Part shown: piece after piece, positions 19,301 to 64,000 of the stretch
Position numbering within the stretch: position 1 is the stretch's first letter
Layout of the letters: each line of letters opens with the position of its first letter
Assembly (NCBI GenBank): GCA_964017185.1
Contig: OZ024871.1
Coordinates: forward strand, 62,051,226 to 62,115,225
Reading direction: 5' to 3'
DNA length: 64,000 bases
DNA from: Rugalucina vietnamica
Taxonomy: Eukaryota; Mollusca; Bivalvia; Lucinida; Lucinidae
The notes under the pieces: model-generated
Told to the model about the DNA's origin: nothing
The model's input: only the letters and a program-made list of their open reading frames with translations
The model's database searches: none
Translations under genes and position numbers: made by a program

Positions 19301-22300
19301 ATGTCAAACTTTATTTACAATATATTGATTTTTGTAAGAATAGTAATAAGATAATAGTCATGTTTTTCGTGCATTCGTTAGTCAATGTGCGGCAGCCCAA
19401 ACCACTTAATATCTGTAATAATATATGCAAGTGCGTTCAAACAAACAAATTTTGAATTCCAAGCGCTTTCAAAAACATCTTAACTAACCTCATCCCTCAG
19501 GTATGCACAAAAACATATCAAGAAGAAATAACGGTTTATAAAGGCTATCACTCTGTCATATTGTTGCTGGATAATTCGTTGGTCCTGAAATGATAAGAAA
19601 GTTTATATTGTTTCACTTGCTGACATTTGTGCTGATATTTGTTGTTAAACATCCATAGAGAAGCGATATTGAGTGTGCATTGTATGCGTACAATTCAAAC
19701 TCAGTAATTATTTCTAAGAAACCTTGCATCATATCAAACAAATAAGTAAAGTTACCATTACATTGCGACCATTTGCCCTTTAATGGGTGAGCGGATGGAC
19801 TTTTTTCAACTATTGCAGGCCAGAATGTTTACAAGAGAAACGGACCCTACAATGGTTAAATTTATTTTGTTTTGTATGTATTCTATAATTCCGTGCCCTA
19901 GTTCTAATAAAACAAGATTATCGATTACATATACATGTATTACTAATCTAACCTTATCTGGTGCCATTGACAACCTATCTAGCTCTCGTTTAGCTCTGTG
20001 AAGCTCCTCTAGGAAACAATTCGATGTACTGCATTCTGTAATGGCATCATCAACCTGACAACATCAAATGTTAGAATAATTGTATTGATTTTATCATCGT
20101 TGGCGCCCTCTTTTCCCAGAAATATCTCTAAACTTTGTTTTAAATTACAGACCAGCCAAGCCACCAGGCTTAATCGCCCCAGCTATAATGATTGTGTCCA
20201 CTGACTGCAGTTCCTTTGCGTCTTTTCAAAGGTATCGGCATTTGCAACTCAACTTGGTTCACGACAAATTACACTAAAGTTTCTGAAATCATCAGAAATA
20301 AAAAACAGAAATTCACACAAGAAATCTCAAAAAGGTATATATACATTTGGAGGATTTACATTTACCTGAGCTTTGAGCATTCGACCGTTTGGTAAAAGGT
20401 CGATTAGTTTTCTTATACTTCGGCATGCATCGGAGTCTAGTGAATCATCCGTGTGTCTGGAACTCTGTGACAACCTACGCATGAAATATTACAATAGACA
20501 TAAGTTCTTGAGACATCAAGGTAAATATCATCAAGGACATAATCTAAATGGAATATCTTCCAGACAAGGAATGCAATTATGAATAAATATATTCATCATG
20601 TTAACATACAGTTGCAATGCACACTGACTTTATAACGCCTTTAAAATTAATGTTTTATTCTAGCTTCAAAATGTTATAGAGAGTGCTCGTATTCAGAGGC
20701 AATTAAAAGACTGTCCACAGTTTTACTACTGTCATTCCCAGCTTTACCGACAAAGGGTTCACAGTAAGAGTCAAGCAAATATCACACAAATTTATATTCC
20801 AATATCCCTTAAAGCTGGGCCATAGCATCTTCATTATTTCACACCCCTTCTATTTACTTTGATTTTACAAAAGTATCCTTTATTACTTCAATTTGCCAAT
20901 ATCTGTCTAGGTCTCAGTATGGAAGCGGGGCTGTAGAGTGTCAAACCTGCAAGAGCGTGTTATCATCATGTTTGCTGCACTCATCCCAAATGCCAGGAAA
21001 TGTGTACTTTAGAACACTTTTGTTCAAGATCAATTAAATGTGTCTGAATGATCGCGAAGAAATTAACTCCAGATATTGGCCTATGTATCCCTTTTAATTG
21101 CCAGTCGGCAATTGCATCTCATAGCTGACGGATGTTGGAATTAAATCACTGTCATACTTTCTCGCGAACATTCTGAGTACTTTTAGAAATTTTGTGCTCG
21201 AACAAATGTATGCCATGCCAGGATTGAAACGCTCGTAAGGGATGAATAATGCAGATGTACATCTTCTCACGCACCTGTGATGTCCGTGTTGCGAATCGCT
21301 AAGGGTGAGCACTAGGTACCCCATTACTGCCCCGACCGTACTCCTACCGTATCCCGAGGGACATGTAAACAACATTGCAGGATTGTCCTCGGACTTGCTG
21401 AATACACTGGAGGCCTGGTAAGGCAAATATTGATAATAGTATATAATATATTTTAACCAAACGAAAAGCTTGACTATTTCACAAACAAAACATACTGATT
21501 CTATATATATAGCTAATAAGTCTAAGGCTTCAAGAAACCATTCAGATAATTGCGTACATGTAAAATTATTATTATAATTATTATTTTTAATTCAGTTTTA
21601 CGTCCCTTTCAAGATTATTTCAGCTCATATGAGACGGGCCAATCAGTAGGTGGGGCGAAAACGGGAGAACCCCGAGAAAAAAAACATGACGCACCCTCAA
21701 AAAGAATTTGGCTTGTCCCGCGTGTGGCCAGAGCGGGGCTCGAACCCACACCAGACACATCGGTGAGATGAACGAGTGATAAAGACGCAGTGCTCTTACC
21801 CGCTCGGCCACGGGGGCGCCTTATGTAAAATTATGCTCTATGTCAATCAGTGCAGCATCTAAGAAATTATTATGTTTTGAAGTTAATGAGATATCTCTTT
21901 CAGAATAGTGACCCAGAAAAATGTAATTCAAATATAAAATAAACACGCATTTTTTACTGATATACGTATTTACAGTCGTTACACTGACCTGTACGATACT
22001 GATAAAATGGTCCACCTCCAGATCAGACGGTGCACCGTGAACAGGGAAACACAACCGTCTGTACCTGCAAAATCAGAAAAATACATGTCTTTAACACGAT
22101 GAATGAACACTTTATTCGATCATCGTTTGCTTTATTCAAATGATGGAATAATAAATTAGATTTTCTAAGCAAGATAACTGTTGTAAACAAAATTAATCTG
22201 ATTTCAAAACATATAATCAGTCTGCGACAGATATGTGAGACAAATGACAGAGCAGATTGACAAAATATTGGAAGCCAAAGTGTAATTTGACGTTGTTTAC

Positions 22301-25300
22301 AGAGAGCACAATCAATAAAAAATACTGGAACACAATCGGTATTCAGAAGGCTTTAAAATTTAGCCTAAATGTAGAAAATAAATCTATTTACTATAAGTAG
22401 CTTACGTAGTATAAAGAGGTTATATTTGCTACTTTTAAACAAATCGTGTGGTACCTATTTGTGGATATTGCTACTACATGTACCTGGGTCAATAATTATT
22501 CATACTACATGTTAGTCATACTTAATTGTAGGTTTTTAGTTATTTTTCATTGTTTTTTTTTTTCTTCAACTTGACGGTATTCTAGTTTATGATTATGCCA
22601 GGTACTGCCTATTGCTTACATTTCCCCACTGCCATACCCAGTCTCTCCACATGTTGAGATAATCTATTACCATTCGGTGCAGGTAATCTCGAATATTTAC
22701 TAGATATGCATAAAAAGCTGATTGTACATTAACCAAATTAAAAATATGGATTGCCTGGTATCCACGGAGTCATATCCCTGTTAGATCACGACAGTAGATA
22801 AAGAATTATTTATTATACCTACCATACATGTATGTACAATACTATTTACATGTACCTGAGTCTGGGATTTGTAAACGCTAGCCTTGAGTAGACTTCCTCC
22901 GAGGTTAGTAGATTGTCTTCAAACTCCACGTGATATAAATGAGGTTCACCTCCCAGGTGGGACAGGTTGTCATAGAAATAGAACAGGTTTTCCTCGTTGA
23001 GCGTTGCCAGAGCAATTATCTGAAACAATATCGTAAATATATCTCGTGTGTTCGGGATTTTACGACTCCGTTAGACTTAGCTAGAGGACTAGCGGCATAG
23101 CTAAAGCTTTTCTCAGAGACATTAAAGGTCTCAAACAATATTATAGGCGATAAACGAGGCAAACATTCCTCTTAATAAATCCACTCATAGATTCAAATAC
23201 ACACAGGGCAGAATTTATTACTATTGTCTCTTGGGGGCATTTTGCTTTTATTTCTTTTATTTGTATGATGACCAAACTTGAGCACTCCGGACAAATTGCA
23301 TGAAAATCACAAAGAAGTAAACTGTTAACGTTCACTCCGGAAGAATGGCCATATGGATGGGTGTCGTAAATACAAAAATCATATTTGAACCTATTACAAA
23401 GTGCTATGACGTCGGTACGTACGATGATGGTACGAAGTCTGCATGACAAATACAACGCAATAATAATATTTTCGTATCCGTTAATATCACATTTAAATTA
23501 GCGCTTTCGATTTGTCTTACAATAGAACTTGCAAACATACCTCCTTTCTGATGTTTGCCTCGAAGAAGTCGGCTTCTTTGACCAGTTTTCCTGTTACAAC
23601 ATTGCTGTTTAGACTGTGCCGTGTTTTAATGGTATACGGTATAAAATCTCCATCTCGCTCTACAAATACTATGGGCTCCTCTCGCATATTGAACAACAGT
23701 ATTTCCTGTAACGTAGAATAAACACGTGGTGTATGAATACAGGGATCAACATGTTTTCTATGTATTAACATTTGCTGGGCCCCGAGAGAAGCGTTGAAAC
23801 CCGAGCCTGAAAAAACATGGACTGCAAGCTCACAGGCAACGCGAACAAATGCGACAGAATATTTGCGCAGTGATGATTCTGCGAAATATCTAAAGGAGCA
23901 TTCTGGGTTTTATATTACCAGTATGTGTAGTGAAAAGCGAAGATTTTTTCGACACATCAAAAGAGCGGATTCTCATTTTATCAAATGAGCGGATTACAGA
24001 TTCGCTGATAGAATCCTGTACCCATTTAGTTTGCATTACAATATTAACCATTTATGTCTAATGTTCAACGATTATTATCATATTTTGCCCCTGCATACTA
24101 ACGGGGAGGTAGATGTAGGATTTCTGTTAAAAGCACGGAGAATTTTCTATGAATGCGCCAAGAGTTTGTAGTGAAAAGCGCGGATTTTTTCGACACAACA
24201 AAAGAGCGGATTTTCTTTTATGAAATGAGCGGAATTCGTTGATAAAATCTTGTACCCCTTCAGTTTATCATTATGCAATATTATAGAAATCAACCATGGT
24301 TTTCAGTGTTCAAACATTCGATGGATCACGAGGAAGGTGTTTGAACACAAGGCCGCAGGCCGCGTGTTCAAACACCTTCCGAGTGATCCAGCGAATGTTT
24401 GAACACTGAAACAAACCATGGTTGATCGCTATTCTTGCATTTTCACTCCAATCCACTTATAATCTCATGAAAATAACATTAACAACGTAAAAACTGACCG
24501 AAAACCGCGGAGCTTTTTCAACGTCGGCCATTTTGTTTCTACGAAACACATTACGTCACGTCGCAGTGACCAATGACGTCGGCCAAAACCCATGTTCAAA
24601 CGGCACGTGAATTTCATGATTTGAACATGGGTTTTGCTGTTTGAACACAGCTTTCGACCAATCAAAAACGACTTCAAACAGCTATGCGCATAGATATCTA
24701 TGCAAGAATAACCGTTTATGTCTAATGTTCAACGGTTATTATCTTTTGCCCCCTGCTCATCAACGGGGAGTAGGATGTAGGATTTGATTTGTTTTTTTTT
24801 TATTAAAACACATCAATGTAATGGGATTCGAACCAAAACCCAATTCCAAAGAGTCGACTCCCAAACTTTACCCATGATCCTCGTCAATAAACCCTCTTCA
24901 ATAGATTACACAATCCGCTCTTATCACTACACGGCCACCGCTAAAATGAACTCCGTCATGGCATGATTTCCGCTTTTTTGTAATATGCCCAAACAAAATT
25001 TTGATCCCTTTCAAACTTTGAGTAGTATATTTACCTCAATTTGACTATGCTCACTAATAAACTTGTGTAGCCAAATGTACATGAATAAATACTTGTATGG
25101 CCACAAACAAACTTCATTAGTGATAATGTTACTTGCGAACCCAATATATATAAAAGATATTTGGTGAATTCGTGCTTTTATTGTTATTTTGTTTTAATTT
25201 TCCTTAACGTAGCAAATGTAATATTTTTCAAGAACATGCTGATAAATTTCCGCGAAAAAAACTTTTTTTTGTGAGTTTTTGTATTTGTGAAAAACGTGTT

Positions 25301-28247: not shown

Positions 28248-31200
28248 TTATTTATTTATTGAGAATGTGAATTTTAAACAAAGATCACTTATTCCATCTG
28301 TGTTTCATAAACATAATTTCAAGCAGTGACTCTACAGTTTGGTTTATGTTAGATCTGTTTGCAATAATTATCCAGAAGCAGATCCCTCATGACGCAATAT
28401 CTACATACCGGGTAGCCATCCAGAGCTATTTTCTCCAACATGATATCTAGTTCGTTGGCTGTAGGTTGGCATGCTGTAAATACCGACACACCAGAGGTCG
28501 CTCGGTGGAGGTTCCCGGCTCTGCCCGTGGCCTGAGTATCGGCGTCTGTATTGTCCTTCACTAGGAAATATTGACCCTGTAACGACAACGAAAATAGGAA
28601 CAATTACAAAAATAACTTAGCCGAAAAGCTTAATATATTAAAACGACCGACAGCACCGACATTGATATCAGAAACCTGGATAAAAAGGCCAACAGTTATT
28701 ATAAAAATAATTACAATCATCTTAATAAAATAATCTATACTGGGAGTTTAAATCAGAAGGTTGAACATGAATAACAAAATGGAAAGCATAATTACAACGG
28801 CAACATGGTTAAAATGTAGCAGCAGTCTATCTGGAAAACATGGGTAAACAATAACCTATGTGAAACATTTAATTCAAATGGTCAGTATAGATAAATAAAA
28901 CATGTCTCGACACGATAAGATAAATATAAAAATGGCAAACACGAACATTTTCAAAACTATTTCATAAGGAACTTAAGTATACGCCTTTGATCTAAGTATG
29001 GCAAAATACCACAAGATGCAAAGTGCTGGTGACATGACTGAATTGTCTTTTGCTGATGCTTTGCAAGTTTCTGCTCAAATAAGATATATTTAGAATCATA
29101 GATGCGACATACATGTACTATTTTCCGGGTTGCTAAGATATTTCCTAGCATGGTGTTACCGCAAACAGTGTGTCACATCATCTAGAATTACGGACCAGGA
29201 ATATATTAGCAGACTCATGTGAAACTCCGCCTTTTTCATTTGACAGGAACTTAAACAAAGTGGCCGTACATCAACGCCTTTGGTTTCGCTTCCACTAGCT
29301 TCCACTTTTAATCGTTGTCTGTGGCTATACAGGCAAATCTACGTTGAACTTGGTAGACAGATTTTCTTACGCTGTGGCTTCCACGAAGACAGATTTTCTT
29401 ACGCTGTGTCTTTATGCAGTTACCATGGATTCCTTTCTGAATAGGAATTTAATTTCTCGTTTGCGTTTATTCTATCGTAATATCTATCTCTCCAATGAAT
29501 GCTTTAAGGTTTCACAGCCGCAAACAGCGCTATATCTTGCTTAGTGCGTCTAATATTGGTGATGTTTTCCAGCACAAATCACAACGAACTTGATTGCTAA
29601 AACATCATGCTAACACACCCCTGTAATTATGACCGCTTAAATTTCGTTAAGATATTCAATACTTTGTAAACTGGGAAATGCAGCATTTTTATTTTATTTG
29701 TCATTTAAAATTATTGCAGGACATTATTTCTAATACTGTGTGCAAGGTAGGCTCAGTTGCTAGCTTCAATTAGAAGGCAGCAATAAGAATGAACATTAAG
29801 CATTAAGCTTCAAAACATACTTCCTACTGTCATAAACTGTACATTGCATAGACATGTTATCGTAGTGAATATTCGCGGGGTCGCATTGGTTTACACTGAA
29901 ATGAAGTTGACGAACCAGATCATTACGGACTAAACTCATGTAAATTGAGAAGCTTAAGAACTCGTTATCTCCTTCATTGCTGACAATTAATGTGTAACCT
30001 CATGGCCATACTCGACAAATTATAGATGTCATTGACTTAAACATTCTAGATGCTTGGTAAGAACGCTTCACTTGATGACATTGTGTGTGAGAGAGGCATA
30101 AAATACGAAAGTGAAGTCTTACAAACTATATTGCATAAAATTGCATAGAACAGTTCTTGGTATTCTGAAAACAAGTAGCCCAAAGGGCAACGATCGCTCA
30201 CAGGAGCGTCAACAAATACAATTACTGGGAGTTTTACCATTCATGACCATCTTGGTCATAAGTCCACATAGAGTTGGCTTTAGCTGGCCAAACGGTTTCA
30301 GGGGAGGTTTGAGTATTATGGCAATATGCATGTAAATGTATATTGCACCGGGGTGGGGGGCAGATGAACCACTGGGGTCTACTTGTTTTTAGAATCATAA
30401 ATACATAATCCAATTGACCAATTCCTGCAAGATTTCCTACTTGAATGACAACAGTTTCTCCAATTAAATGCATAAGAGACTTATGTTAAACCTGTCGTAA
30501 AATAGGTCAAGGTAATTACATAGTCATGGTTTATTGTAGTACTTTAGTCATCAGTGCTACGTGCCAAGTCGCTTTGAAATAGGTCCACCGGTTCCACAGA
30601 AGAAGATTTTTATAGCAGAGAAATAAAGATGTACTAAATTGGTGAAGAAGGTAGGTTTCGAACCCACATACTACGGCAACTGCGCCAAGCTATACAGGGC
30701 CATCGCCTCTACCGACTGCGCTACTACGCTTCATAAAAACGGAGTTATCATAGCTCAGCTTTAGAGGCGATTTCCCTGCATAATCCGTCTGATAAGTTGC
30801 TATTATACATATTATACATTACTTCCCCCTTCCTCTAGATGCTTCATTAAAATTTGGCTTTGATTGCCTAAGCGATTTCACGGGAGAAGATATTTGAACA
30901 TTATATTAATATAAATGCATACTGCACCAGGATGGTGGCAGTGGAACTCCTGGGGTCCAATTATTTTTCAGAATCATAAATATTCAGTTCAATTGCCCAT
31001 TTCTCGCAAGATTTTCCCTTATAATGACATTTTAACAGTTTACCTCATTCTAGTTCATAGGTGACCTATGTTGACCTTGCCGTAAAATAGGTCAAATTCA
31101 TCACAGGGTCATGATTTATATACTCGTTGTAGTTTTTTGTTATAATAAATATTTCGATCGTTTCATCGAATAGATCGAAATAATTGTCTATGCGACACGA

Positions 31201-34200
31201 GAGCGCGACTAATTCGCTGTAGTATACTGGAGGTTATGCACGGGCGATTCAGTGAGTAAGCGGTTTACTGTGATTTTGAAGTTCAGTTTCTAGGGCACTC
31301 TCTCGAAGTGAACAGCTTTGTACCGCGGCGAGATTTTTACATGTACACTGACGTTTTCGTTCGATGAACATATGGAGCTCGAGACATGACGAAGCTTGAA
31401 TGGAGCAGCGGCGGTGAGACAAATTTCACGGAGACAAATTTCACGGAGAAAAAATAAGTTTTACACCGGACGGTATTTCATTCTATAATTCAAATCTCTG
31501 TCGCTTCGTATCAATGTATCAATTTAGACGTGTTGTCTTGGAGTCAACTAAATCATTTACAAAGTGATAACTTATTGACATGTAGGGGCGCCCGGATAGC
31601 TCAGTCGGTAGCGCGTATGGCTTCTGACTAGCTATGTACCTCTGCCGTGCAGGTTCGAATCCCACTGGCGACGCCAGTAAAAACTATCAATTATTGAAAA
31701 AACTATCAATGGTTCCTGCATCGGTATGTACCAATGGTTTGACTGTCACCTTCCGGGCGCGGTGGTTTCACAGGGTATTTCCCGACCGAACGTCGAGAAC
31801 TTCCCTGGCTTTCCCCCACCACTAGACAGTCGGCGTCTAAGAAGCAGAATTGCTTAGCTAAGTAGAAATGCCTAGCTTGACGTCTATTTCCAGTAAGTAG
31901 GTCATTCGTTTGTAAGATGACACGTTAAATGCACGTGGGTTTGTTAAATTCGTGATGGCATAGGTTACCGCGCCATTTAATGACTTATTTGCAGTATTGC
32001 TTAAATGCGTAGTTTTCAGGCAATCAACAGAAAAACCAAGATCGGCTTATTATTACTCACACAGGCTTTATATGCAATACAAGGTAAGAAAGAACACAAC
32101 GCTTTTATTCAGCATACGGCTATAGTTAATTGTAGCAGCAGATACATCATCAATTATTTAAAAAGGACATAAACGAAGAACAGCATTATATACTGACCTA
32201 AATATGTAACCGTTTAACGTGGATTGATATATTTACAAAGTCCCTAACACCCCCTAAACTTTGAACATGTTGTTCTCAGTCCTGGGATACAGATCATTCA
32301 TGATATTACATCTCCTGAAAGGGCTATGAATGACAAACGTTATCCTAGTAATATAACCAGAATTTGTATTTGCATTTTCGTGCATGTTGGTAGTGAAATG
32401 CACTGTTAGTTTGAAAACTGCTTTTATTTTTCTTGCATTGTTTTACGCTTAAATAAGAAATATTGTGGGATGAGTGTTGGCACGGTAGTTAGTAAGTAGA
32501 AAAATCTATCAACTGCTATCATTTTTGTTCTGTTTGAAACAATTCTTACCGAAATATCTGCAGACAAAAAGCCCGTTTTTTTTTAGACTAATCAAGGTCA
32601 AATTAATGGGCTTATTTGTTATGTAAAAAGGCTATGGAAATATACTGTATATGTATTGTTATGGGCCGAACATACTTTTTGCAACCCTGTGTCTGTCACG
32701 AATCGCATGTGCTTTGTTGTTTCCCAATTTTTCATCGTAATTTCAACAATTTGATTTGCCTCGAAAATTTATATGACCAGACATTTTTTACGAAACTGAT
32801 TTTACCTTGTATGCACCATTTGTTCTGGTTTCAATCGCCTTTTTACGCGAATTTTATCCATAAAACATTCCATTTTTCATCTATAGCATGTTTACATCCA
32901 GAGTGTGTATTGATTGCGTGTGTGAGTACAATATCGATAATGTGTAAACCCGTCTGTCAAAGTTGTGTCGGCGGCTTCTTTTGAATTTCAAACAGAAAAA
33001 TCAACTTATTACATCAAAGTTCAATACCTACCCAATTCGTCTCGTCATTTCCATTGTAAGAATTCGAAAGATAAATTATTCTACTTTCGTTTCGTGATGC
33101 TCTCAATGATTGTTTCATTCAAGTTTTACGCGATTTTTGCATTTTTTCGCGACCGGTTGGTGAAATTCTTTACGCTTTCTATCAATATGGCCGTCGTGTT
33201 GTCGTTTCATACAGCATCCTACAGCATCATACACCGCGCGACGTTGTAGGGTCATGTGACCCTACGTTTCCTACGTCGGTTTTCGCTGTAGGAGGTCAAA
33301 CCTACACCACTTTCATCTGTAGGGTGTAGGGTCGTAGGGTGTAGGATCACCCGAGTATATAAGAAAACGCTGTAGGTTCCTAAGAGGACTCCAAATTTTG
33401 ATCGCTTAGAGAGCAGACACGTTTTAGGTTTCTGTCAAAATTATTTCATTTTTCGCTTTATTTAACGACTTTTATTCCGTTTCTGATTACGATAAGATAA
33501 GGAATCAACAGATAACAACACAGAGAATCATTTGTAAAGTTTATTGACAATTTTAATATTTTTTTTTAGTAATTTCTGGAACAATTCATAATTTCATTTT
33601 ATGCTAAATACAAGTAACTGCTTTCATAAAAGCCAGCTTTCTTTTATAATCACTGACGCTGACATAACTTACAATAAACGTATTTGCTGACCATTTTGTG
33701 CCATTTTATCATTAAATCATTGTCCATCCATCCGTCCATGCTGCCATTTCAATATATCCATGTTACATTTAACTATTACTGTTAAATTTTAATATTTTCA
33801 CCATGCATCCACTGTAGTTTGCCAAAACAATTTTATTCATTAAATGGCAACCTGAGAAACCATTTCTTTTCATTTCAAGCCATTTCATTCATAACGTTAT
33901 CACTCATTATCATACAAAAGTCGCTTTGGTTGGAGTCCGTGCCTTTGTTGGTTCATCATTTTTTTTTCTGAGTGACCGAGTTGCACTCGAACATATCTCC
34001 CCTAAAGGCGATCGGCTGATCAAGGTTGACACCGCACAGCCGACGCGTAACAGTATGTTCTACCTGAATGAACAGACTACCTGTCCTATTTTAACAGGTA
34101 TACACAGCGTGTACATACTATAATGCATATAAATATACTGTACAAAATAATTTTATCTATGTTTTATTTGAGACATGTCTCAGAGGACTTTAAATCCAAC

Positions 34201-36187: not shown

Positions 36188-39100
36188 AAGTAAGATCAAA
36201 GTTTCTAAATTGGCTAGTAGCAGTTATTGGTACATTTTAAATCTAGTTGCAAAGGCGGTTGTCTAAAGGTCCGGATATTTTTGCAGATTGTCAGTGCAAA
36301 CATGTAATAGTGTCGTACCAAAGTTTATTAATGCAAAGAAACGGACAATCGAAAGTTGTCAATAAGATCTAAAGGCGGAAATAGCGTAGTGTATATAATA
36401 AACTGACAAGGTACATGTACTTGCAAGACTACGAGAAATGAAGTGATTATGCTGTATGTAAAGCACATGTTTAAATCATATATATGCAGAAAACGGATAA
36501 AACAGTTATGTATGCTTTATTTCTATCAAATATCAGCTCTGGAAGATACACGTTATTAAGACTGGTAAGTGATATAATAGTATAATATGAGTCTTGTATG
36601 TGGTTAGTTTTTCCCTGATGAGGCTGGGACTCTGCAGCATGAACGCAATTGGAATATGACATAAGGAATATGATATAACAGAGCCATTGATGAATTTTGA
36701 AATTAGACATATAAATTAAATATACAAGAACCTTCATAGGTATTCATCAATAGCATAATGTACATTCCTTGTTAGGCAAGTAATTCACAGCTCCGAGTGA
36801 CATGGCATTATGTGCCTATTATTAGGTAAACGTAAGTACTGTTCGAGGATAGACATGTGAACTCCGTACGAGACTTAAAGCATGGCTGAAATGTGAGCAT
36901 CGAGATCCATTGAAAAGTAAGCCACGGGTGTGGCTGGAACCATCCTTGGAGAATTATTAGCACCGGATCAGGTTAATAACCAGTGTAATGAGACTGGAGT
37001 ATCATGCAGGTAAATACATGTACCGATGAAAACTGAAATATGAGACTCGTATGAGTATTAATTCAGTTTGAGCCCCGGCTGTGGATAAAATTTGAACCCG
37101 GATGCGGACCACGGATCAGGTTAGAAAATCAGAGTAATAAATGAGACCGGAATATTATACAGGTAAAAATGAGTATTGACGAAAACCGGAAATATAAGCT
37201 TCGTACGAGTATTGAATTGTGAGCCCTGGCTGTGGCCAAACTTTGATCCCGCATTTGGGCACTGGATCAGACTAGAAAATCGGAGTAATACATGTACTGG
37301 AGTATCATGCAGGTAAATATGAACACCGATGGAAATTGAAATTATGAGCCTTGTACGAATATTAAAATGTAAGCCAGGTATGTGGCTGAAATATGAGCCC
37401 AGGATGTGGCTGAAATGAGAGCCTCGGATATGGCTGAAAAGTAAAGCTTCAGATGTGGCTGAAAATAAAAGTTCGGATGCGGTTAAATTGTGAGCCCCGG
37501 AAGTGGCTGAAACGTTAGCATAGGGAATGGCTGAAATGAAAGCCTTGGATGTGGTTGAAAAGTTACTCTTCAGATGTGGCTGAAAATCAAAGCTCGGATG
37601 CAGCTCAATTGTGAGCCCCGGAAGTGGCTGAAACGTGAGCCCCGGAAGTGGCTGAAATGTAAATCTCGGATGTGGCTAAAATCAAAGCCCGGAGTGTCTG
37701 AAAAAAAAAAAGCCCCGGATGTGGCAGAACTTGAATATTTGATGTGTCAGTAAGCGATGATCCTAGCCCGTAATACACACCGGAGGTATTAAAATAAAAC
37801 AATTTTATCAACAGTTTCGGATAAGAGTGATGTTATAATGTAGACAGTAAACTCAGAGTTAGTAAAGTAAGAAACGATGCAAATGGTTACACAGTTGCAG
37901 CAGTATGGGCATCAAGATATGCGTTATTGATAACAATTTAGTAGAGTTAGAAAGATAGAAAGACGGAGTTTAAGCCAACTTGTGCTGCCATGGATTCAGC
38001 ACATCAGATTTAAAACTATTACTATGGCTACACCATCAACCAAAGTTAATACGGTAAAGGTATAGCGTAAGAAGCGAGTCAATGTAAATTTAAAACGAAT
38101 CACACATTGCAAAATAGCTTAACATGAGGATTACAGATGGGGTAGGTTTGTTTTATACCAGTACGTTATGTAAGATACACTTTACATAAAATGGCGAGAA
38201 ATAAGATGAAAGAGAGAAAAATCGTATTCGTTATAGCATTAGAAATGTAAAGGCTACGGAAACAAAAATATGTGTAAAACAAAAGAGCATTATCTCGAAT
38301 TATAACAGAATATTGTTTTGATAATTAGAGCAAATACTATTCAAAGGTAGCAGAAGTGTAGTTGTATCGCAGTAAGCACCAGGGTGTTTCGAATTAAAAA
38401 AAAATGAATGTTGATATTGGATTTCATTGATCAGTCACATTCATAGTAAATTATTTTAAACATAGTCAATGTCGAATGGGAATCTCGTGCGATTTTTTTG
38501 ACGATTTATGACGACCTATATAAAACTTATCTATGGGGTATATGTATAACATTAAACCTGTTCGTCGCACTTACATCCGCGTGAGAGTCGATTTATGACG
38601 TCATCAATATGGCGGTTATCTGCCTATATATGTATTATTCGTTTTTCCATCAGAATCAAATGAAAACATCGCATTATTCCTTATTTTGCAAAGAAAATGT
38701 ATGAAATGCATCTGATTATACACACGATAGACGAATTAAGTCGATAGGTCAAAGGATATTGCTTTATCCGGCCGTGTGTCCGTTCGTGCATACGTTGAAC
38801 ATACGTTTTTTTTTCTTCTAGAACCGCCAACAACCTAGGTCCCACAGGAGCTAATTTGACATACCTTTGCACCCCCAGGACAATTTTTCATGGGTGCCAT
38901 ATCATTCATTGGAACCACAGAAATGCAAAGAATTTTTGTCCTCAAAGATAAACTCAACTACACTATGAAAAATTGCATGGTTTCCATGGCAACACAGTCA
39001 ACGTGATTCTTAAGCATGGGGGTGTACATACAAAATTGATCATATCTTCACTGTTCCTTATCCTAGACTACTGAACATGGTCTCATTTTAAAGCATAGAC

Positions 39101-41354
39101 ATAGTCCTTTTTCCCCGATGGTAAGTAATGCGAATGATCTTATTTGCATATTCATTACTTTTAATGAAAAATGGCAAAAAAATCTTTAAAAATCTATAAA
39201 TAAACTAATTTCAGGTCCATGCTGGCATTGTGATACTTTGTTATTGAAACGGAAATATCAAATGACAAATTTATTGATGACCTGGTCCTATGTGAAAATT
39301 ATCTCATTTGCATATTCATGAAAATTAATAAAAGTATCAAAAAAATAGGAAAAACGAGGGAAATATTACATCCATTGCAAGGTATTGCATATGTTATAAG
39401 ACCTATCTTGCATCCCTGGGACAAAGTCTCAAGGCTGTAAGTGTTGTTAGCGGGACCTTTTTAATGTCATAAAATATTGTCCTCAGCAATGAAAAAACAT
39501 TTGCATGATGTAAAATACCATAGTTTCAACACCACTCCTCATGCGATTCTAAAGAATAGGCTGTACTTACAAAAATACTTGTATCCCACAAACAGAATGC
39601 TCTAGAATACTATAATTGGTCTGACAGTGATGCATGCACTTAACAATTTAACCTTGATACCTTATATCTAAATCATTGAATTTACTATTTATGAAAATTA
39701 ATTAAAAATAAACATAACAAATGGAGAAGAATTGTGGAAAAATAGGGGGTATACGTACAAAATCGCTTGTACCAGAGCTATAAATCAACCCAGGATGCTG
39801 AACGATGTATCAAATGAATGCTATGGCAATGTACTATGGTCCTGAAGTATTATATAAAAATAATCCGATTTTCCATTTCATTAATTTTAATGAAAACTTG
39901 AAAAAATAGAGAAAAGGAAATGCAAAAAATAATTGAGTAAACCTACAAAATGACTTGATTCTCGGCAATCAAAGTCCTATGGTGCTGAAAAGGGCACCAA
40001 ATGGTGTGCAGGGAAATATTATACCATCCTGTACTACAATTTATGAGTCATTTGGTTTTTAGTTTTAAGAATATTAACATAACCTTTTGAATTAAGAGAA
40101 AAAATACGGAACAATTAAGGGGGTATACGTAGACAAACGCATGTATCTTGGCTACTGAAAGACCTAGAGAGCTTTAACTGGCATCAACTGATTACTAGGA
40201 CAATGTTCTATAACCATGCAATCAGCTTATTTTGTTGTATGGCTATTACTAAGATCTTCATAACTAAGAGAAAATTCAACGCAAAATGAACGGGTACACC
40301 AAACCAAAAATCGTTCATATCTCAGCTGCCAATATCCTTAGAGTAATGAAAATGGTACCAATAGAATGATAGAAGAATGCACTACTGCCATATAGTCCGA
40401 CAGCTTAACCACATGTCATTTAATTTTCAGGGCCCAGTTGTTCAAAATTAACGACGTCGTTAGTTAACGTTTCGTTAAAATTTCAAACATTAATATTACA
40501 AATACACTGTTATTTTTTGTTGAAAAAATGTGAGAATCCTTTGCAGTGCAAAGGATTCTCACATTTTTTCAACAAAAAATAACAGTGTATTTGTTACTTT
40601 AGCTGATATTTGCTTAACAAATTTATGTCTTAACGATATCGTTAAGTTAACGATGCTTTGAACAACTGGGTCCTGATTGTTACATTAATTTTCGAAAAGT
40701 TGTGAAAATAACAGAAAATTGAAGGATGTGCTTCACCAAAATTTACCAACTTTTGCTTGCCAGAAAACATGATTTATATATCTGAGCACATGACAATAAA
40801 TCATTGTCCTAGCAATAAATTGATCCAATTTTGAGTTCTCTTCGGCTATTGGCCACTGAGATATAAGCGATTTTGTTGGTGGACCCCTTCATTTTTCATT
40901 GATTGTGCTCTTATTTATTGAGATGTCATTAATATCCATACAACAAAAATAGTTGAAGCTTGAGTAGCCGAAACCGCGGCATGACACATATACTTTCTCA
41001 TCCATATGTTCACTGCTCTTAAAGGATCTCAGTTTGAATATTTTTTTTTTACTTTATATATCTGATTATATGGTTACAGAACATTTTCCTAGCAATCATT
41101 CATTAACAATTATAGCTCCCTAGGTCTTTCAGTAGCAAGATACGCGCGTTTTTCTACGTATGCCCCTTATTATTTCCGTATTATTTTCTCTTAATTCAAA
41201 AGGTTTTGTTAATATTCCTAAACCTTAAAACAAATGACCCATAAATTGTAGTACAGGATGATATAATAATGCCATAGACACCATTTGATGTCATTTTCAG
41301 CACCATATGACGTTTGATTGCTGAGATACAAGTCCTTTTGTAGGTTTACTCATT

Positions 41355-41401
<47 letters not shown>

Positions 41402-44400
41402 TTTGTTAAGTTTTCATTACAATTCATGAAATGGAAAATCAGATTATTCTAATTCCATACTTCAGGGTCATATTACAATGCCATAGCATTCATTTGATAG
41501 CTCTTTCAGCATCCTGCGTTGATTAACAGCTCTGGTACAGGCGATTTTGTGCACAGACCCTCTATTTTTCCACATTTTTTCTCCAATTATTTATGTTTGT
41601 TTTATTTATTTTCATGAATAAGTTAAGTCAGTAATTTAATATTAGGTATCAAGGTTAAATTATTAGATTCATGTGGCACTATCAGTCCAATTATAGAATT
41701 CTAGAGCATTCTGATGGTGGGATATAAGTATTTTTGTAAGTACATCCTGTTCTTTAGAATCGCATGAGGAGTGGTGTGGAAACTATGTAATTTTACATCA
41801 TGCAATTTTTTTTTTCATTGCTGATGACAATATTTTATGGAATTAAGGTGGTCTCTCTGACAACACTGACAGTCTTGAGAATTTGTCCCAGGGATGCAAG
41901 ACAGATTAGATCTTATAACCTATCCAATCCCTTAAAATGGATATAGTTTTCCCTCGTTTTTCTTCACTTTTTGACAGTTTTATTAATTTTCATGAATATG
42001 CAAATGAGGTATTTTTCATACAAGACCAGATTATCAATACATTCGTCACATGATATTACCGGCTCAATAACAAAGTGTCACAACTACAGTTTGGGTCTGA
42101 ACTTAAGTTCATTTATGGGTTTTTTAAAGATTTTTCTGCCATTTTGCATGTTTTCATGAAAAGTAATATGCTAATTAGATAATTTGCATTAATTACCATA
42201 AAAAAGGGCTATGTCTAAGCTTTAAAATGAGACCATGTGCAATAGTCTAGGATAAGTAACAGTGGAGATAAGGTCAATTTTGTATGTACACCCCATCCTC
42301 AAGAATGACGTTAACGGTTGCCATGGAAACTGTGCATTTTTTTCATAGTGCAATTGAGTTTATCTTTGGTAAGCGAAAATTATTTGCGTTTCTAGGGTCC
42401 CAATAAATGATTTGGTACCCGTGAAAAATAAACTTGGGGGATGCAAAGTAGGTCAAATTAGCTACTGGTGTACTATGCATAGTTTAGCACTTTGTATGCA
42501 GATTTTGTCTTGTCGTGGCTCATATTGTCAGTGCTATGCTCCTTGTGAGAGATATTTTGTGCTAAAATAGCTTTTATAAATACAATTGGTAAAATACATC
42601 CATTTAGAAACAGCGAGAAGCTGAAATAAAATTTTATCTATTAAACATAGTATGAAAATGGTTGTTCAAATTGCATATTATGAGTGCGCTGGTCGCCATT
42701 TTGATGACGTCATAGTTCAGCCCATACGCGGGTCTCAGGGCGACGAACTGGTTTAAATTGTTGCATATGCCCCAAAGTTTGATTTAAGGTAGGTCGTCAT
42801 AAATCGTCATGAAATTCCCACGGGACGACTTTTTTGGCCCATTCGACATTAACTAACAGAAGCGTTTGAGTAACATATTGGTTATTCTCTTTGCGTCACA
42901 CTATGTTTTTCATATAATTATGTATGTTTTCAGAATGTTATTCGCAGAATGGCGTAAGAGCGGAATGAGTGAAACTTGTTTTTCAAATGGACAGAATTCG
43001 GGAGCAACAGCGTTGATAGAACGATTGACAATTATACAGTGAAATCGTGAGCTGTCGGTATGCTAAGGCAGCTCGTTGATGTGTTTAGACTTTGTTAAGA
43101 TTGGTTCTCATAAACGAGCTAAATGTGTATAGTAAAATATTGAGATTTGTTTCAAATTAATAGTTAGATTTTAAACTCAGAATTAAAATTTGTCATGTAG
43201 GAAATGATCTATCTAAGCCAAAGTACAGAAAAATTCACAATGTATTTTTCTAAAACGCACCTTTTTTGCGCGAATCTAATTGCCGGAAAACATTGATACA
43301 CGTTTTTGCAATGTCAGATACATGTAGTGGGATAATGCAGAAGCTTGTGTTTGCAAACTATTTGCGTCTGAATTGCCTTAAAGTATGTGGTTATGATGAG
43401 CAATGTTAATGGTTGGAGCTTAAAGCTGAAGAAAGTATGTTTGTATGGTTTGAATCATTGACAAGTAGGTCAATCATGTATGCTTTTGTGGTTAGAAGAT
43501 TGTATATAGAGTTTCGTTTCGTTCGAATCATATACTGTTAATTTAAAAATTGTTTTGAATCTATACAAATTTTGGTACTTTACACGCGTCTATCCTTTGT
43601 ATCATTCTAAAGTGCGCCACATTGCATCAAATGTGTTGTTTTGATTTGTTGCCGAAGTGAAGAATAGACTAAATATTTCCATCGTTTCATCGAATAGATC
43701 GAAATAATTGTCTATGCGACACGAGAGCGCGACTAATTCGCTGTAGTATACTGGAGGTTATGCACGGGCGATTCAGTGAGTAAGCGGTTTACTGTGATTT
43801 TGAAGTTCAGTTTCTGGGGCACTCTCTTGAAGTGAACAGCTTTGTACCAAAATTTGTATAGATATGATGATCTTAAGGTGTTAGATTGCCACCTTCCCTC
43901 TAATATACTGCAAGGCACGTGATCTACAGCTTTTTAGCTCACCTGAGCCGAAGGCTCACAGGTGAGCTTATAGTATACCCATGCTCCGGCGTCCGTCCGT
44001 CGTCCGTCGTCCACAATTTCAAAGATCTTCTTCTCTGAAACCACTTGGCCAATCAAGTTGAAATTTTATGTGGAGCCTCCTTGGGTAGTGGCATTTCAAG
44101 TTTGATCGCGAAATCCAGGTCACATGACCAAGATGGCCGCCACGCTCATATATGGTAAAAACCCTTCAAAAATCTTCTTCTCCAGAACCGGTGGGCCGAT
44201 TTCCACGAAACTTGGTATGTAGCATTGGGGACTTCAGCCCATCATAGTTTGATAAAATGATGACCCTTGGATGACCTTGACCTATTTTACGGCAAGGTCA
44301 ATTTTGGAAACATAGGCTTTTACATGGGAAAAAGTGAAAACTATGGATTTTTTGAAAACTATTGCAGCCTGAGGCCTGAAAAGTGGTAGATGCAAACAAC

Positions 44401-47400
44401 TAATGGAGTAGATGAAGGTATGTGATTAATTTAGGTCAAGGTCATCTCTTGACCTTGGCCAGTCTGTCGTCCATTCACACTTTTCAAAGATCTTCTTCTC
44501 TGAAACTGCTGGGCCAATCAAACTGAAATTTTATGTGGAGCATCCATGGGTAGCGGAGACGAAAGTTTGATCGCGAAATCCAGGTCACATGACCAAGATG
44601 GCCGCCACGCCCATATATGGTAAAAACCACTCAAAAATCTTCATCTCCAGAACCGGCAGGCCGATTTTCATGAAACTTGGTATGTAGCATTTGGGACTCC
44701 AGCCCATCATAGTTTGATAAAATGATGACCCTAGGATGACCTTGACCTAATTTACGGCAAGGTCAATTTTGGAAACATAGGCTTTAACATGGGAAAAAGT
44801 GAAAACTATGGATTTTTTTAAAACTATTGCAGCCTGATGCCTGAAAAGTGGTAGATGCAAACAACTAATGGAGTAGATGAAGGTATGTGATTAATGTAGG
44901 TCAAGGTCATCTCTTGACCTTGGCCAGTCTGTCGTCCATACACACTTTTCAAAGGTCTTCTTCTCTGAAACTGCTGGGCCAATCAAAGTGAAATTTTATG
45001 TGGAGCATCCATGGGTAGGGGAGACAAAAGTTTGATCGCGAAATCTAGGTCACATGACCAAGATGGCCGTCACGCCCATATATGGTAAAAACCACTCAAA
45101 AATCTTCTTCTCCAGAACTGGCAGGCCGATTTTCATGAAACTTGATATGAAGCATTTATGACGCCAGCCCATCATAGTTTGATCAAATGATGACCCTAGG
45201 ATGACCTTGACCTATTTTACGGCAATTTCAATTTTGGAAACATAGGCTTTTACATGGGAAAAGTGAAAACTATGGATTTTTTGGAAACTGCTGCAGCCTG
45301 AGACCTTAAAAGTGGTAGATGCAAACAAGTAATGGAGTAGATGAAGGTATGTGATAAATTTAGGTCAGGGTCATCTCTTGACTTTGGCCAGTCTGTTGTC
45401 CATACACACTTTTCAAAGATCTTCTTCTCTGAAACTGCTGGGCCAATCAAAGTGAAATTTTATGTGGGGCATCCATGGGTAGGGGAGACAAAAATTTGAT
45501 CGCAAAATCCAGGTCACATGACCAAGATGGCCGCCACGCCCATATATGGTAAAAAAACACTCAAAAATCTTCTTTTTCAGAGCCGGCTGGCCGATTTAGG
45601 CAAAACTTGGTATGAAGCATTTGGGACTCCAGCCCATCATACTTTCTTGAAATGATGAACATAGGATGACCTTGACCTATTTTACGGCAAGGTCAATTTT
45701 GGAAACATAGGTTTTTACATGGGAAAAGGCGAAAACAATGGATTTTTTGGAAACTGTTGCAGCCTGAGACCTGAAAGTTGCTAGATGCAGACAACTAATG
45801 GAGTCAATGAAGGTAAGTTATTAATGAAGGCCAAGGTCATTTCTTGACCTTGACCCAAGGTCATTTAAATATCAAAATTAAAATTATGGTTTTCTCAGAA
45901 ATCACTTGGTTTGGAAACTATTGCAGCCTGATCATGAGACCTGAAACTTTGCAGATGCAGACAACTTATGAAGTCAATAAAGGTGTGAAGGTGTGTGAGT
46001 ATTCAAGATCAAGGTCATTTCATGATGACTTAATACTCCAAGATCAGGCTTCAGGTGAGCGTTCTCAGGACCAATGGTCCTCTGGTTTAACCGAAACGCT
46101 AGCAAAAAAATAAGGGCTGGTTGAGGTATGTTTTTGCTGGGTGGCGGGTATTCTGTACGGGGTCGAGATCATCCACAGTAGACCTCTGAAAGTGACCCAG
46201 CGATCGTCCGATACTTAAGCTCGTCACACTTATTTTGGTTTTTCAAATTTATCCTTCAAGCGCATAAAACCGCATATTTAGTTTACGTAACAAACAATCC
46301 GTCAGTGCTATCACTTTCTCATGTTCACTGTTCACTTCACAATAAAGTGCGCCACATTGCATCAAATGTGTTGTTTTGATTTGTTGCCGAAGTGAAGAAT
46401 AGACTTGAAGTTCCGTTGAAATCGGTCCATCGGTTTCGGAGAAGAAGATTTTGAAGAGTTTTTACTATAAATGGGCATGGTTACCATCTTGGTCACGTGA
46501 CTTGAATTATTAATATATACATTCACCCTTCCTATAGATGCTTCGAAAAACTGGCTTTGATTAGCCAATCGGTCTCAGAGAAGATCTTTAAAAATGTGGA
46601 TGCACGGACAGACAGACAGACAGACGCACGGACGAACGCCGGCTCGAAAACCACCCTATAAGCTTCCCATGAGGTTTCGGCTCAGGTGAGCTAAAACTAT
46701 GCATACATATTTAAAAAAACAAATATCCGTACTCATTTTCAATCTTTTTGAAATTTGAATTACGCCAAAACTAGAAGTCAATGAAACGTTGCATGATTTC
46801 AAGAGCTTCGGATCTGGCTAGGCTATTATCCGTCAGATTAGACGTTGAGCTTTTACTGTCCGCCTAAATCTACTGTCCACTGTCCGTTATCCAGCATATA
46901 ACGTAATAGCATAAACTGATCGAACTAATCGAAGGACACATTTGCGGTACCGCTCAAGTTGTGCTTAATGTTGGCTGATTAGTTAAGCATTCTTCAGAAT
47001 CTGAGATAATCTTAAAGTTATTTATTTGAATAGAGGCGCTCACATAACAACCTGAATAGATGTCTCGTTCAAATTAAGGCTAATGGACTTCCTAACATAC
47101 AGTACAGAATATGGCTGAATACGGGTTTAATGCCAATCAGAGACTGGATGTTAGAAACACGGAGACAGTTGATGCCGTGAAGTAAGAATAGAGGGATCAG
47201 GAATCGATGCAATTAAATTAAAAGTCTCAACATAGTCACCAGGTGGGAAAGAAAATACATAAAACATCAAACATTTTTCCAACGACACACTCGAAGAGCA
47301 GAATGACTAGCTCTTTCCCAACAAGGTAGCCATTCGGAAAAGTTTAAACCAAAGGCAACAAACACAACAGAGAGACAGGCACAAATAATCAGTGGTATCA

Positions 47401-47633: not shown

Positions 47634-50600
47634 ATCCATTTTACTAGGACAGCGAAATAACCATTTCTACTAGTACAGCGAAAATGTATTAGCGATTATT
47701 AAAACGGATTTGAATAAAATTAAACAAAGTTCTCGACTGGCTAACACATGTATTACAAAATGTTGCTATGATAAAGCCAAAACCTAAACCCAAAGATACT
47801 AGGTGGAAAGGAGACCATTTCTTCTGGTGAACTCATCAAGATATTCATTTACGAAACTATCAAATCAAATAAACATAATCATTGTACTTTACTGGATAAA
47901 TTAACATCCCAAACCAAAGACACAAAGCGGAACAGAAAGAATAATACAATGCATCACAAAGCACAACCAACATATGCGAAGAGCCCAACAAGAAAAGCAG
48001 CAACTCGACCATAATAAATCAAGAACATCCCGACGAGCACAACAGACAGACAAACGGACAAAACACGCAACAGGAATATAAATAACAACAACCGCATTGG
48101 AACAGTCAGTAACGAATTACTGGGTGCGGGGTTAAATCGATTTTACGGAGCTCCAATCCTCGCCCTAAGTTTGTTGATATTTAAAACAAAACGATTTTGA
48201 TTTAAATAAAATATTTCTTATCTCATTTAAGTGAGGCCACTGTGTACATTGTATTATAAACTAGAAACAGGATGTAGAGTTCATAAAATTTTAACCAAAA
48301 AATTTAGTTTAAACATATTTATTCTTTGTTGACATATATATATATATATATACATACATACAATACATAACAGTACACGATAGAAAGGATTGGAACGAAA
48401 GCAAAATACTTATAGAATTCCGCTCCTTAATTGGAGATAAATATTAACTGTAATAATTATGGCTGTATATTTGTCACAGTAAGATGAATAAATATTTGAT
48501 TATTGCGTTTGATGGCATTATTAATTTGAAATATTGAAATTGGGGGGAGTGTTGGGTGAGTGCAGACAACAGGGGAGACCTCAGACCGGTATCAAATCTG
48601 ATCACAGAGGTCGCAATATACTGTTTAATTGTAAGATTTTGTATCCTTAAAAACGTCTAGTGTCAATCAAATATTTATGTACGCATTCGAATATTTTAAT
48701 GTTTGTTTCCAAACTAAGAGAAGGGTCACCGTATAACAACAAGTGTAAGTTAGGGTTCATGAATAGTGCTATTGTGTTGAGGAGTTCGGTTCGCTGTGTC
48801 TGATAAGTTCTACAATGAAAAAAGAAATGTTGACTATCTTCAATGCTGCCGCAGTGACATAGAGGTGATGCAGAAATGTTTCTATGAAAAAGGTCAAGAT
48901 TTAGTGAACTACAGTTTGTATGTAATCTTGTGTGAAGTATCTGTGCTCTGCGGCTGCCAAAGTAGAAATACTCAGGTGTCCGATCTTTTACTGTTTTTAA
49001 GCTGTACTTGAATAGATTGACAGATGTAGACTGTTGAACTTCACTGGACAGACTGTTCCAAGCTCTTACTGTAGACGGTAGGAAAGAACTGAAATACTGA
49101 GTTGTATTTGCATCAATAGTTCGGAGAGAATGAGAATTACGAAGATTGTAGCGTGAGATTGTTCCGACTGGTCGGGCGACTAAGAACGATGGGTAATTTG
49201 GTGTGAGTTGATTCATCATTTTATAGAACAATGTGAGCTTATGAGATTCACGTCAAAAACTTTAGAAACTTGACGTTTATGACCTTGACCTCAAGGCCAC
49301 TCTAAGCTAGGTTATGATGGTACATGTACAACCTAAAACGTTGAACAAATATCTAGCAACAGGTATAGTATCAACTAGATCCATCCATATTTTCAGTAGA
49401 TCTAGACATTAATAAACTTAAAGCAAAAATGTTAATATAAATTTCAAAGTCCAGTATGGTACAGCATGGTAAACAAACCGACATACCAACAACCAACATA
49501 ATGTATAGTATCAACTGCATCCATTACTGTGTTCATGAGATATTTATATACTTATAAAAACCTCTTAACACAAAATTTCAAAGTTCGTGACCTTGAGGTC
49601 AATGTTTTACGAATATGAAAATTCGTAACTTATAAATGATGCGTAGTTTGAAAAAAATCCACGTCCCTGATGGGATTCGAACCCGAATCGCCGAGGTAGA
49701 AATCCAGTGATTTAACTTCTGACCCAAAGAGTCAACTCCCTGCCGCAGTATGTCAGAGATTGTACTTATATGATACATTGTATCGAATAGCTGTGTTATT
49801 TATAGAATCTACGCATCATGTGATCTGCCAGCCCGACCTTCCAACCACGGCAGATAATCTCAAATGAATGAGTGGTGCAATGGGACATAACACATCCCCA
49901 TTTCGAGAGAGTAATCATTTATGATTACGAAAATGTCACGAATGACTCTAAAACTCTGACTCAAATGGTCCATTCTCGGACAAGACCACATTTTACGAAA
50001 TTGAAAATTCGTAACTTAGAAATGATGCGTAGTTTGAAAAAATCCTACGTCTCTGATGGGATTCGAACCCCAATCGCCGGGTTAGAAATCGAGTGCTCTA
50101 ACCACTGAGCCAAAGAGTCGACTCCCTGACGCAGTATGTCAGAGATTGTACTTATATGATACATTGTATCGAATAATCGTGCTATTTATAGAAGCTACGC
50201 ATCATGTGATCACCCAGCCCGACCTTCCAACCGGGGCAGATAATCTCGAATGAATGACTGGTGCAATGGAACATAACAAATTTCACTCATTTTGGTTTTG
50301 ATAATACAGCATAAAATTTCAGACCAATAGTAACAACATGCAACGTATCAACAAGATCCATCTACTTGTTGAAGGGATATAGTTTTATAAAATCTTTAAA
50401 ACCAAAAGCTCTAACATTTGAGCGAAACAAACGCAGACGCAGACACCGGGTGAGTGCAATAGCTTTTCCTGTACTTTCGTATAGACAAGCTAAACACAAA
50501 ACCAGGGGTTGAAGTTTTTTAATTTTTGATTGGATTGCTATTTATTTCGAATTTAAATTTAACATGTCAACTTCAGTGTATGATATCCAACGAGCGCTTT

Positions 50601-62660: not shown

Positions 62661-62663
62661 ATG

Positions 62664-62732
62664 CACTACTGACAATCACGTGGTATTGTTTACATACAAA
62701 CCGATAAATGATCGGTGACACACACTGCAATT
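62664..62732. mobile_element. Arm fragment of the 9.8-kb foldback element family
   Basis: CACTACTGACAATCACGTGGTATTG, TACATACAAACCGATAAATGATC and GTGACACACACTGCAATT match the reverse complement of 9990-10079 (CACATGGTATTG, ACATACAAATCGATAAATGATC, GTGACACACACTGAAATT). Confidence 0.82.
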
Positions 62733-62941
62733 AGCTAAAGCACCACACTGAGAAAAGCCATCAAAAATCACTTTTGGTGGCCACCTGTTTAGCACAAATT
62801 TCATTTGTAAAGTTGTTTAGTACTGTGCTTTGGAAGTATGAAAACCAATGTTTTATTTGTTTTCGGTCTTGCAAAAGTTCTTTTATTCTGGGTGAAAATG
62901 GAGTACCTTAGCCTATTTGATCCGTGACATTTAGAACATTT

Positions 62942-64000
62942 ATCTCTGGGTACCCAGGTGGCTAATTTTACCTACCTTGCACATCCCCTCCCAGGACAAT
63001 CTTTCAAGGGTGCCAAATCGTTCATTGGGACCCCAGAAATGCAAATAACTTTTGTCGTCAAAGATAAACTCTTTTGCTCTATGAAAAAAATGCATGGTTT
63101 CCATGGCAACCATTAACATGATTCTTGAGCATGGGGGTGTACATACAAAATCTATCGTATCCCGGCTGTTACTTGTCCTAGACCATTGTATCTGGTCTCA
63201 TTTTAAAGCTTAATACATAGCCCTTTCAACCTATGGTAAGTAATGCAAATTATTTAATATTCATGAATTTTAATGAAAACATTAAAATGACAGAAAAAAA
63301 TCGTTAAAAACATTAATAAACTAATTTCAGGACCAAACTATCAATGTGACACTTTTTATAAAGCCAGTAATATCATATGAGAAATTCGTTGATGTCATGG
63401 GCCTAAATAAAATTATCTCATTTGCATATTCATGAATATTAATGATTTTGTCGAAAATCGAGGAAAACAAGGGAAAAGTGTAGCCATTGCAAGGTTTTGG
63501 ATGGGTTATAAGATATATCATGCATCCCTGGGACCAACTTTAATGGCTGCCAGTGTAGTCAGAGGTATCACCTTAATGCCATTAAATATTGTCCTCAGCA
63601 ATGAACGCATTTACATGATGTAAAAATACATAGTTTCCACACCTACCCCTAGTGTGATTCAAATGAATAGGGTATTCACAAAATATTCATATACCAACAA
63701 TAGCATGCCCTAGAATACTATAATTGGTTTAATAGTGATGCATGGATCAAGAAATTTAACCGTAATACCTATTATTTAAATGGTTGAATATGCTTATTCA
63801 TGAAAAGTAATAAAGATACAAAGAAATCGGTGAAAAATCTTAGAAAAATAGCGGTAGGCATACAAAATCGCTTGTACCAGAGCTGGTTACAAACTCAGGA
63901 TGCTGAAAAAATATCAAAATAATGATATGGCAATGTACTATGTCCCTTAAGTCTGATATAATAATTATCTGATTTTCAATTTCATGAATTATAATGGAAA
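62942..64000. mobile_element. Second copy of the giant foldback arm, running off the window
   Basis: Parallel to 38838-39905: CCCAGGACAAT, GGGTGCCA, GCATGGTTTCCATGGCAAC, AGCATGGGGGTGTACATACAAAAT, ATTTGCATATTCATGAA, ACAAAATCGCTTGTACCAGAGCT. The outer 370 bp of the 38.46-kb arm are missing here. Whether an opposite arm follows lies beyond the window. Confidence 0.87.

Follow-up and report, generated by a model that had tools for sequence, protein, structure and literature searches.

The inverted repeat at 38464..42854 of the window (the whole analysed stretch of 64,000 nucleotides from the bivalve Rugalucina vietnamica) raises the question of whether it constitutes a single mobile element and to which kind of element it belongs. 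The original prediction described it as one 4.4-kb foldback whose arms pair over their entire length. There is indeed an inverted repeat, well outside chance expectation, but these coordinates probably join two structures rather than one, the inner of which is a foldback of ~3.6 kb with inverted arms (~38838-42475). With either of the two possible outer borders, the locus is probably best explained as an old DNA transposon of foldback type, itself non-autonomous.

In a BLAST comparison of 36964-44354 with the whole window, three blocks pair in inverted orientation: 38845-40225 with 42467-41062 (81.1%, 1425 columns, E=0.0), 40222-40379 with 40956-40802 (74.7%), and 38463-38614 with 42855-42694 (73.5%). 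The arms thus align locally well beyond scattered words. The left arm of the inner foldback spans 38838..40426 on the + strand and the right arm 40762..42475 on the - strand, the latter delimited by the arm alignment and by hits of a unit HMM on the - strand down to 40762. Over 1572 aligned columns, the two arms are 81% identical. In the alignment, a (TC)20 microsatellite (41359..41398) is confined to the right arm. Very long terminal inverted repeats (TIRs) therefore form most of the element, as in foldback elements.

The third block is separated from the other two. The left outer inverted repeat of ~150 bp (38463..38614, + strand) is 73% identical to 42855-42694, and its partner, the right outer repeat (42694..42855, - strand), is found by BLAST as well as by local alignment, with a score of 74 against 9.7 +/- 1.6 in shuffled sequences (z 39.6). 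Between the outer repeats and the inner arms lie a left spacer of 223 bp (38615..38837) and a right spacer of 218 bp (42476..42693), for which local alignment detects no similarity to one another (score 11 versus 13.3 shuffled, z -1.0). The long inverted arms hold, but their match along the full length does not, because the two spacers are unrelated and the outer 150-bp repeat is detached from the rest.

A third copy of the arm sequence (62943..64000, + strand) helps to place the end of the element. It has the same orientation and the same outer end as the left arm, aligns with it by BLAST from 38850 up to base 64000, which is the last base of the window, and is 77% identical to the left arm and 79% to the right arm. 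It had been described as a single arm in left-arm orientation; the orientation is right, but its singleness is unsupported since the copy is cut by the window end. The left arm, the right arm and the third copy all start at one position and then run into mutually unrelated flanks, as a defined element end would give, and the three junctions place this end near 38838, 42475 and 62943. As to dispersal, the window offers three arms at two loci with one common end, the second locus ending at the window border, and only one copy with both arms is seen. The predicted mobility or segmental copying is supported by the third copy, with its identical starting point and unrelated flank. The outer end of this copy carries a 12-bp palindrome that is kept in neither of the other arms.

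The outer repeat does not accompany the third copy. It has no further BLAST match in the window, including at the third copy, and four local-alignment tests on the 1 kb preceding that copy (61942-62942) give z values of -0.9 to 1.4. The 242 bp immediately before the third copy resemble neither the left spacer (score 12 versus 12.6 shuffled, z -0.3) nor the right spacer (15 versus 12.9, z 1.0). From these sequence comparisons, the foldback was probably inserted into a shorter enclosing TIR element of ~755 bp (38463-38837 plus 42476-42855), with the outer repeats read as the TIRs of the latter. A variant of the foldback reading, which is rather doubtful and whose likelihood is a share of that given to the reading as a whole, takes 38463-42855 as one 4.4-kb foldback in which the outer 150 bp are the true TIR ends, the spacers are diverged or replaced subterminal sequence, and the third copy either lost its outer part or represents another subfamily. 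In favour of such a single element, the two pairs of repeats have one axis of symmetry, the spacers are nearly equal in length (223 and 218 bp), and composite TIR domains are known in Tetris (PMC4079207). It fits poorly with spacers lacking any residual similarity while the outer repeats are still 73% and the inner ones 81% identical, and with a third copy that begins at the inner end without an outer repeat in the preceding 1 kb.

The centre of the inner foldback is occupied by a second nested structure, a MITE-like palindrome of 250 bp (40427..40676), 74.9% self-complementary over 275 columns. Its own centre (40491-40601) is nearly perfect, with 55-nt arms 95% complementary and 1 nt between them. 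Rfam returns seven matches below the gathering level, with E up to 1, all of them on 40481-40594 within this palindrome (the best being MIR1120/1122, E 6e-10), and such matches are what a MITE-like hairpin would give. Beyond the palindrome, 40677..40718 is probably a remainder of the left arm: with 40677-40757 as query, left-arm units are hit on the + strand at ~40680-40718 (z 4.0, 0/300 shuffles reaching this score), a longer query of 40677-40801 gives only z 1.9 (22/300), and the unit profile extends 16 bases past the palindrome. As units in left-arm orientation seem to resume there, the palindrome is read as a later insertion. The BLAST arm match stops at 40379 on one side and at 40802 on the other, so that ~172 bp are left uncovered in addition to the palindrome; the right-arm unit profile reaches 40762. 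By exclusion, the turn-round point appears to lie in the centre (40719..40761), between ~40719 and 40762, a placement less sure than the arms because it rests on weaker matches. A loop-free turn-round exactly at 40757 would be too precise a placement, since + strand units extend to ~40718 and 40758-40801 alone gives z 0.5, though the right-arm profile reaches 40762. In these comparisons, the match of 40380-40426 was left out as a trivial match to itself.

Each arm is itself internally repeated, as had been predicted from degenerate units of about 190 bp. The best eight self-alignments of the left arm have offsets of 188, 376, 542, 727, 549, 164, 374 and 1275, all except 164 near multiples of 181-188 bp, the predominant spacing of the units. 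The best one reaches 116 bits, whereas none of 100 dinucleotide shuffles exceeds 32.6, the five longest show 58-62% identity, and alignments scoring above the shuffle maximum cover 95% of the left arm. Tandem repeats are thus found within inverted repeats, a further foldback feature. A unit profile, seeded with a single unit and refined by iteration over the arms, hence not independent of them, comprises 19 rows in the arms and third copy (seven in the left arm, eight in the right arm and four in the third copy). Against the whole window it returns 27 rows; 18 of them, with E no higher than 3e-6, fall in the arms or the third copy, as does one more at E 0.1; the remaining eight have E 0.89 or worse, two of them being inside the arms on the opposite strand. 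The conserved blocks of the unit are GGGTATACNTACAAAA near its start and TTTGCATATTCATGAA near its end, and its sequence words have no match in the open-access papers searched.

The units are far more diverged from each other (~40%) than are the arms (19%) or the copies (21-23%), which indicates that amplification of the array long preceded the separation of arms and copies. The diverged units stand in identical order in the three arms, in the third as far as it is visible. In the stretch common to all three, the Kimura two-parameter (K2P) distance is 0.195 between left and right arms, 0.278 between left arm and third copy, and 0.254 between right arm and third copy. Counts of sites at which two of them agree against the other are distributed likewise (131, 68 and 84, respectively), besides 728 invariant sites and 24 at which all differ. 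The excess shared by left and right arms is absent in the first, outermost ~220 columns (15/51 informative sites, compared with 116/232 further inside; Fisher p 0.008, for a split picked after the bins had been seen). As judged from sequence, it would accord with an exchange of sequence between the arms within a single copy, for which one comparison copy is thin evidence. Gene conversion in discrete tracts was considered and rejected, the longest left-right run being 6 versus 6.7 in shuffles and the number of runs 140 versus 142. After this tract test, the contrast between outer and inner columns is the sole remaining sign of conversion. Identity along the arms is also patchier than in shuffles (windowed variance 0.0067 versus 0.0037, 0/1000 as high); stretches of low complexity, the borders of indels or constraint acting on portions of the units could be the causes.

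No coding signal was found, in agreement with the original description of arms lacking an ORF. Mismatches between left and right arms are spread evenly over the three phases (105/90/104) and only 4/27 gaps are multiples of three. Stop-to-stop frames overlapping 38463-42855 reach at most 70 aa and those of the third copy 85 aa. Eight frames of at least 62 aa overlap 38463-42855 or 62943-64000; six of the eight were scanned against Pfam and none of these six reaches the cut-off. A coding origin of the units was rejected on the flat mismatch phases, the scarcity of gaps in threes and the absence of a Pfam match in 6/8 frames. At the gathering level, Rfam has two matches in the window and none in the element. 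A phage or virus origin was likewise rejected, there being no blastn match in a phage collection for 38844-40380 or 38463-38837. Exact words of the arms have no hit in viral and genome contig collections, which hold viruses and prokaryotes and so have little bearing on animal copies.

Target duplications were sought at both sets of ends, and none is convincing at either the inner or the outer ones. Between a left border of 38825-38850 and a right border of 42462-42485, no exact match of at least 4 bases, none of at least 7 with one mismatch and none of 9-12 with two mismatches was found, the number of exact 4-mers being 0 against a mean of 1.35 in shuffles. The outer ends show three 4-base matches, against 1.84 +/- 1.64 in shuffles. 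The age of the element and the uncertainty of its ends by some bases may conceal a duplication of 7-10 bp, but a 9-bp one at 19% divergence is expected, by our own arithmetic, to have two mismatches or fewer, and so to show in such a scan, about three times in four.

Elsewhere in the window, a PTPlike_phytase match of 27.9 bits (Pfam cut-off 27) lies in an exon-like frame on the - strand (5664-5897), and two further matches on the same strand fall below the cut-off (21094-21591 and 23517-23909). PTPlike_phytase is presumably the domain of paladin, and these exons point to an animal origin of the window. Frames at 28352-28603, 22849-23070 and 19809-20063 are similar by eye only and have no Pfam match. 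Other palindromes occur at 5941-7093 (73.8%, 1204 columns), 9806-10023 and 24273-24440, together with smaller ones, so that palindromes lacking a loop or having a short one are frequent here.

The sequence of events that would account for these features starts from an ancient tandem array of ~185-bp units forming each arm, the tails of the two arms being joined directly or through a short loop. The foldback (~38838-42475) would then have been inserted, probably, into the ~755-bp TIR element, and the 250-bp palindromic element would have hit the left arm later. Neither a transposase nor an autonomous relative was found in the window, and the foldback would be moved by the transposase of another element, to which the repeated units may offer extra binding sites, by analogy with what is reported for the Galileo family. 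An alternative without any foldback, which we regard as unlikely, supposes a tandem-unit element, for example a HINE/Helentron-like element of molluscs that carries a short satellite array; two copies of it would have come to lie tail to tail through insertion or local inverted duplication, the inverted repeat being a local accident. In line with it, the third copy shows one arm within the window, left and right arms share more sites than either does with the third copy, as local inversion predicts, and oyster HINEs carry arrays of 140-180-bp units according to the accessible part of PMC7492417. The same partial source leads one to expect two modules in a HINE, whereas none is seen ahead of the turn-round, where ~40 bp are unassigned, and 95% of the left arm consists of units. 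A single local duplication would not, moreover, give by itself an outermost ~220 columns devoid of the left-right excess.

A long double-stranded RNA had been suggested to arise from this structure, placed in a putative sense-strand intron. A transcript of 38838-42475 is predicted to fold into one hairpin of -1840.6 kcal/mol (two mononucleotide shuffles: -780.4 and -774.3), with 1310/1468 pairs joining the arms. The opposite strand gives a similar energy (-1863.4), so no specific intron orientation is needed and, in this folding model, RNA of the element could form a long imperfect hairpin or dsRNA whichever the direction of transcription. Such an RNA is physically possible, but the predicted cross-arm duplex is broken into 161 helices, the longest of 34 bp. 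A functional host hairpin locus making endogenous siRNA or dsRNA is very improbable: the energy and the cross-arm pairing accord with it, as do arm stretches better kept than others for a reason that was not found, but any inverted repeat would yield such a fold and the duplex is highly fragmented.

The transposon reading, i.e., that of an old non-autonomous foldback, may be carried one step further, although only tentatively. The locus would belong to a hitherto undescribed animal foldback lineage whose tandem array dates from a remote amplification (its units being now ~60% alike) and persists in every arm as different units in a fixed order, with homogenisation between the two arms of one copy continuing in the stem and not reaching the ends. 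Confirmed genome-wide, it would be a further family of animal foldbacks beside those known from flies, sea urchin and nematodes, and would indicate that the plan of tandem units within TIRs can be old and stable, given the same unit order in the three arms as far as visible. Long inverted repeats may, in addition, be places where chromosomes rearrange. Taken alone, the locus amounts to a single degraded copy without coding sequence, and no concept is altered by it.

Several known systems combine internal repeats with long or composite termini. For foldback elements in bivalves, the open-access literature searched returned only the Tetris paper (PMC4079207) and PMC9659126; the word "foldback" occurs 0 times in the accessible main text of a bivalve transposon survey (PMC10294476). 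As described in the available portion of PMC7492417, the oyster HINE/Helentron elements are also non-autonomous with short arrays of 140-180-bp units, but their array lies between two modules and no giant inverted repeat is described; no HINE-type second module is seen here, units making up 95% of the left arm. Members of this group would further be expected to show subterminal inverted repeats and a 3' palindrome, with which the 12-bp palindrome at the outer end of the third copy may be compared. The accessible text on Tm1, a Mutator/foldback element of root-knot nematodes, reports composite, internally repeated TIRs and, in one copy, a nested inverted-repeat element of 936 bp, both reminiscent of the present locus, whereas its units are of ~14 bp and its target duplications mostly of 9 bp (PMC3169594). 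Galileo F, of the P superfamily, has TIRs of ~0.9-1.26 kb with no, two or three ~210-bp units; the Galileo family, in the same partially available source, includes transposase-coding copies and mostly 7-bp target duplications, neither of which was found here (PMC3573991). Tetris, a foldback of Drosophila virilis, carries ~220-bp tandem units in TIRs of up to 1,735 bp and has no conserved ORF, and it shares with the present element long TIRs with internal tandem units, AT-richness and non-coding complete copies (PMC4079207). In the part of the source available, the units of two among its three complete copies group by element; they are ~94% alike, compared with ~58-62% in the long alignments here. 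Target duplications of 8-9 bp and a domain of up to 866 bp that flanks the units are further features of Tetris, not seen here (PMC4079207). Since neither a transposase nor a convincing target duplication was found, no superfamily membership is claimed. The combination of long TIRs, internal tandem units and no coding sequence had been thought to fit no standard class well, yet it corresponds to the description of foldbacks such as Tetris and Galileo F, and the anatomy is that of this known structural kind.

Along the inner foldback, whose arms (38838-40426 and 40762-42475) consist of degenerate units of about 185 bp, arm-to-arm identity varies more unevenly along the length than in any of 1000 shuffles. 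The left arm is interrupted by a 250-bp MITE-like palindrome (40427-40676) with a near-perfect centre (40491-40601), its 55-nt arms being 95% complementary, compared with 75% for the palindrome overall. Template-switch correction might be the source of this centre.

Another palindrome, of 1.15 kb, with a short or absent loop, lies at 5941-7093 (73.8% identity over 1204 columns). Tandem units are not seen in it, as no internal self-match in its first half exceeds 18.3 bits, and BLAST found no match between this palindrome and the inverted repeat at 38464-42854.

Direct repeats are also present. A 465-466-bp unit forms two tandem arrays, at 14057-16359 and 44017-45852, which stand in opposite orientations about 28 kb apart and are about 92% alike; a more diverged copy of the unit (about 70%) is located at 46408-46696. 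The second array is adjoined by a 179-bp direct repeat (31146-31324 and 43670-43848), the copies of which are 98.3% identical and separated by about 12.5 kb. Another array (8729-9772) is built from an 18-bp unit related to AGAACAGTTCTGTACTAT that contains a short palindrome.

On the minus strand, a 201-aa open frame (48647-49252) may represent the terminal part of a LINE reverse transcriptase; its resemblance to zf-RVT is weak and falls under the cut-off (E 0.039). The same strand carries exon-like PTPlike_phytase frames, one exceeding the Pfam cut-off (5664-5897) and two under it (21094-21591 and 23517-23909). Same-strand phytase-like frames flank an Rfam SECIS_1 match (13482-13549, minus strand; 39 bits, where the gathering threshold is 35), which may be a true selenoprotein signal or a chance match. 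The frames are perhaps exons of a paladin-like gene spanning more than 18 kb within a region delimited as 5664-28603, the outer limit 28603 being set by eye.
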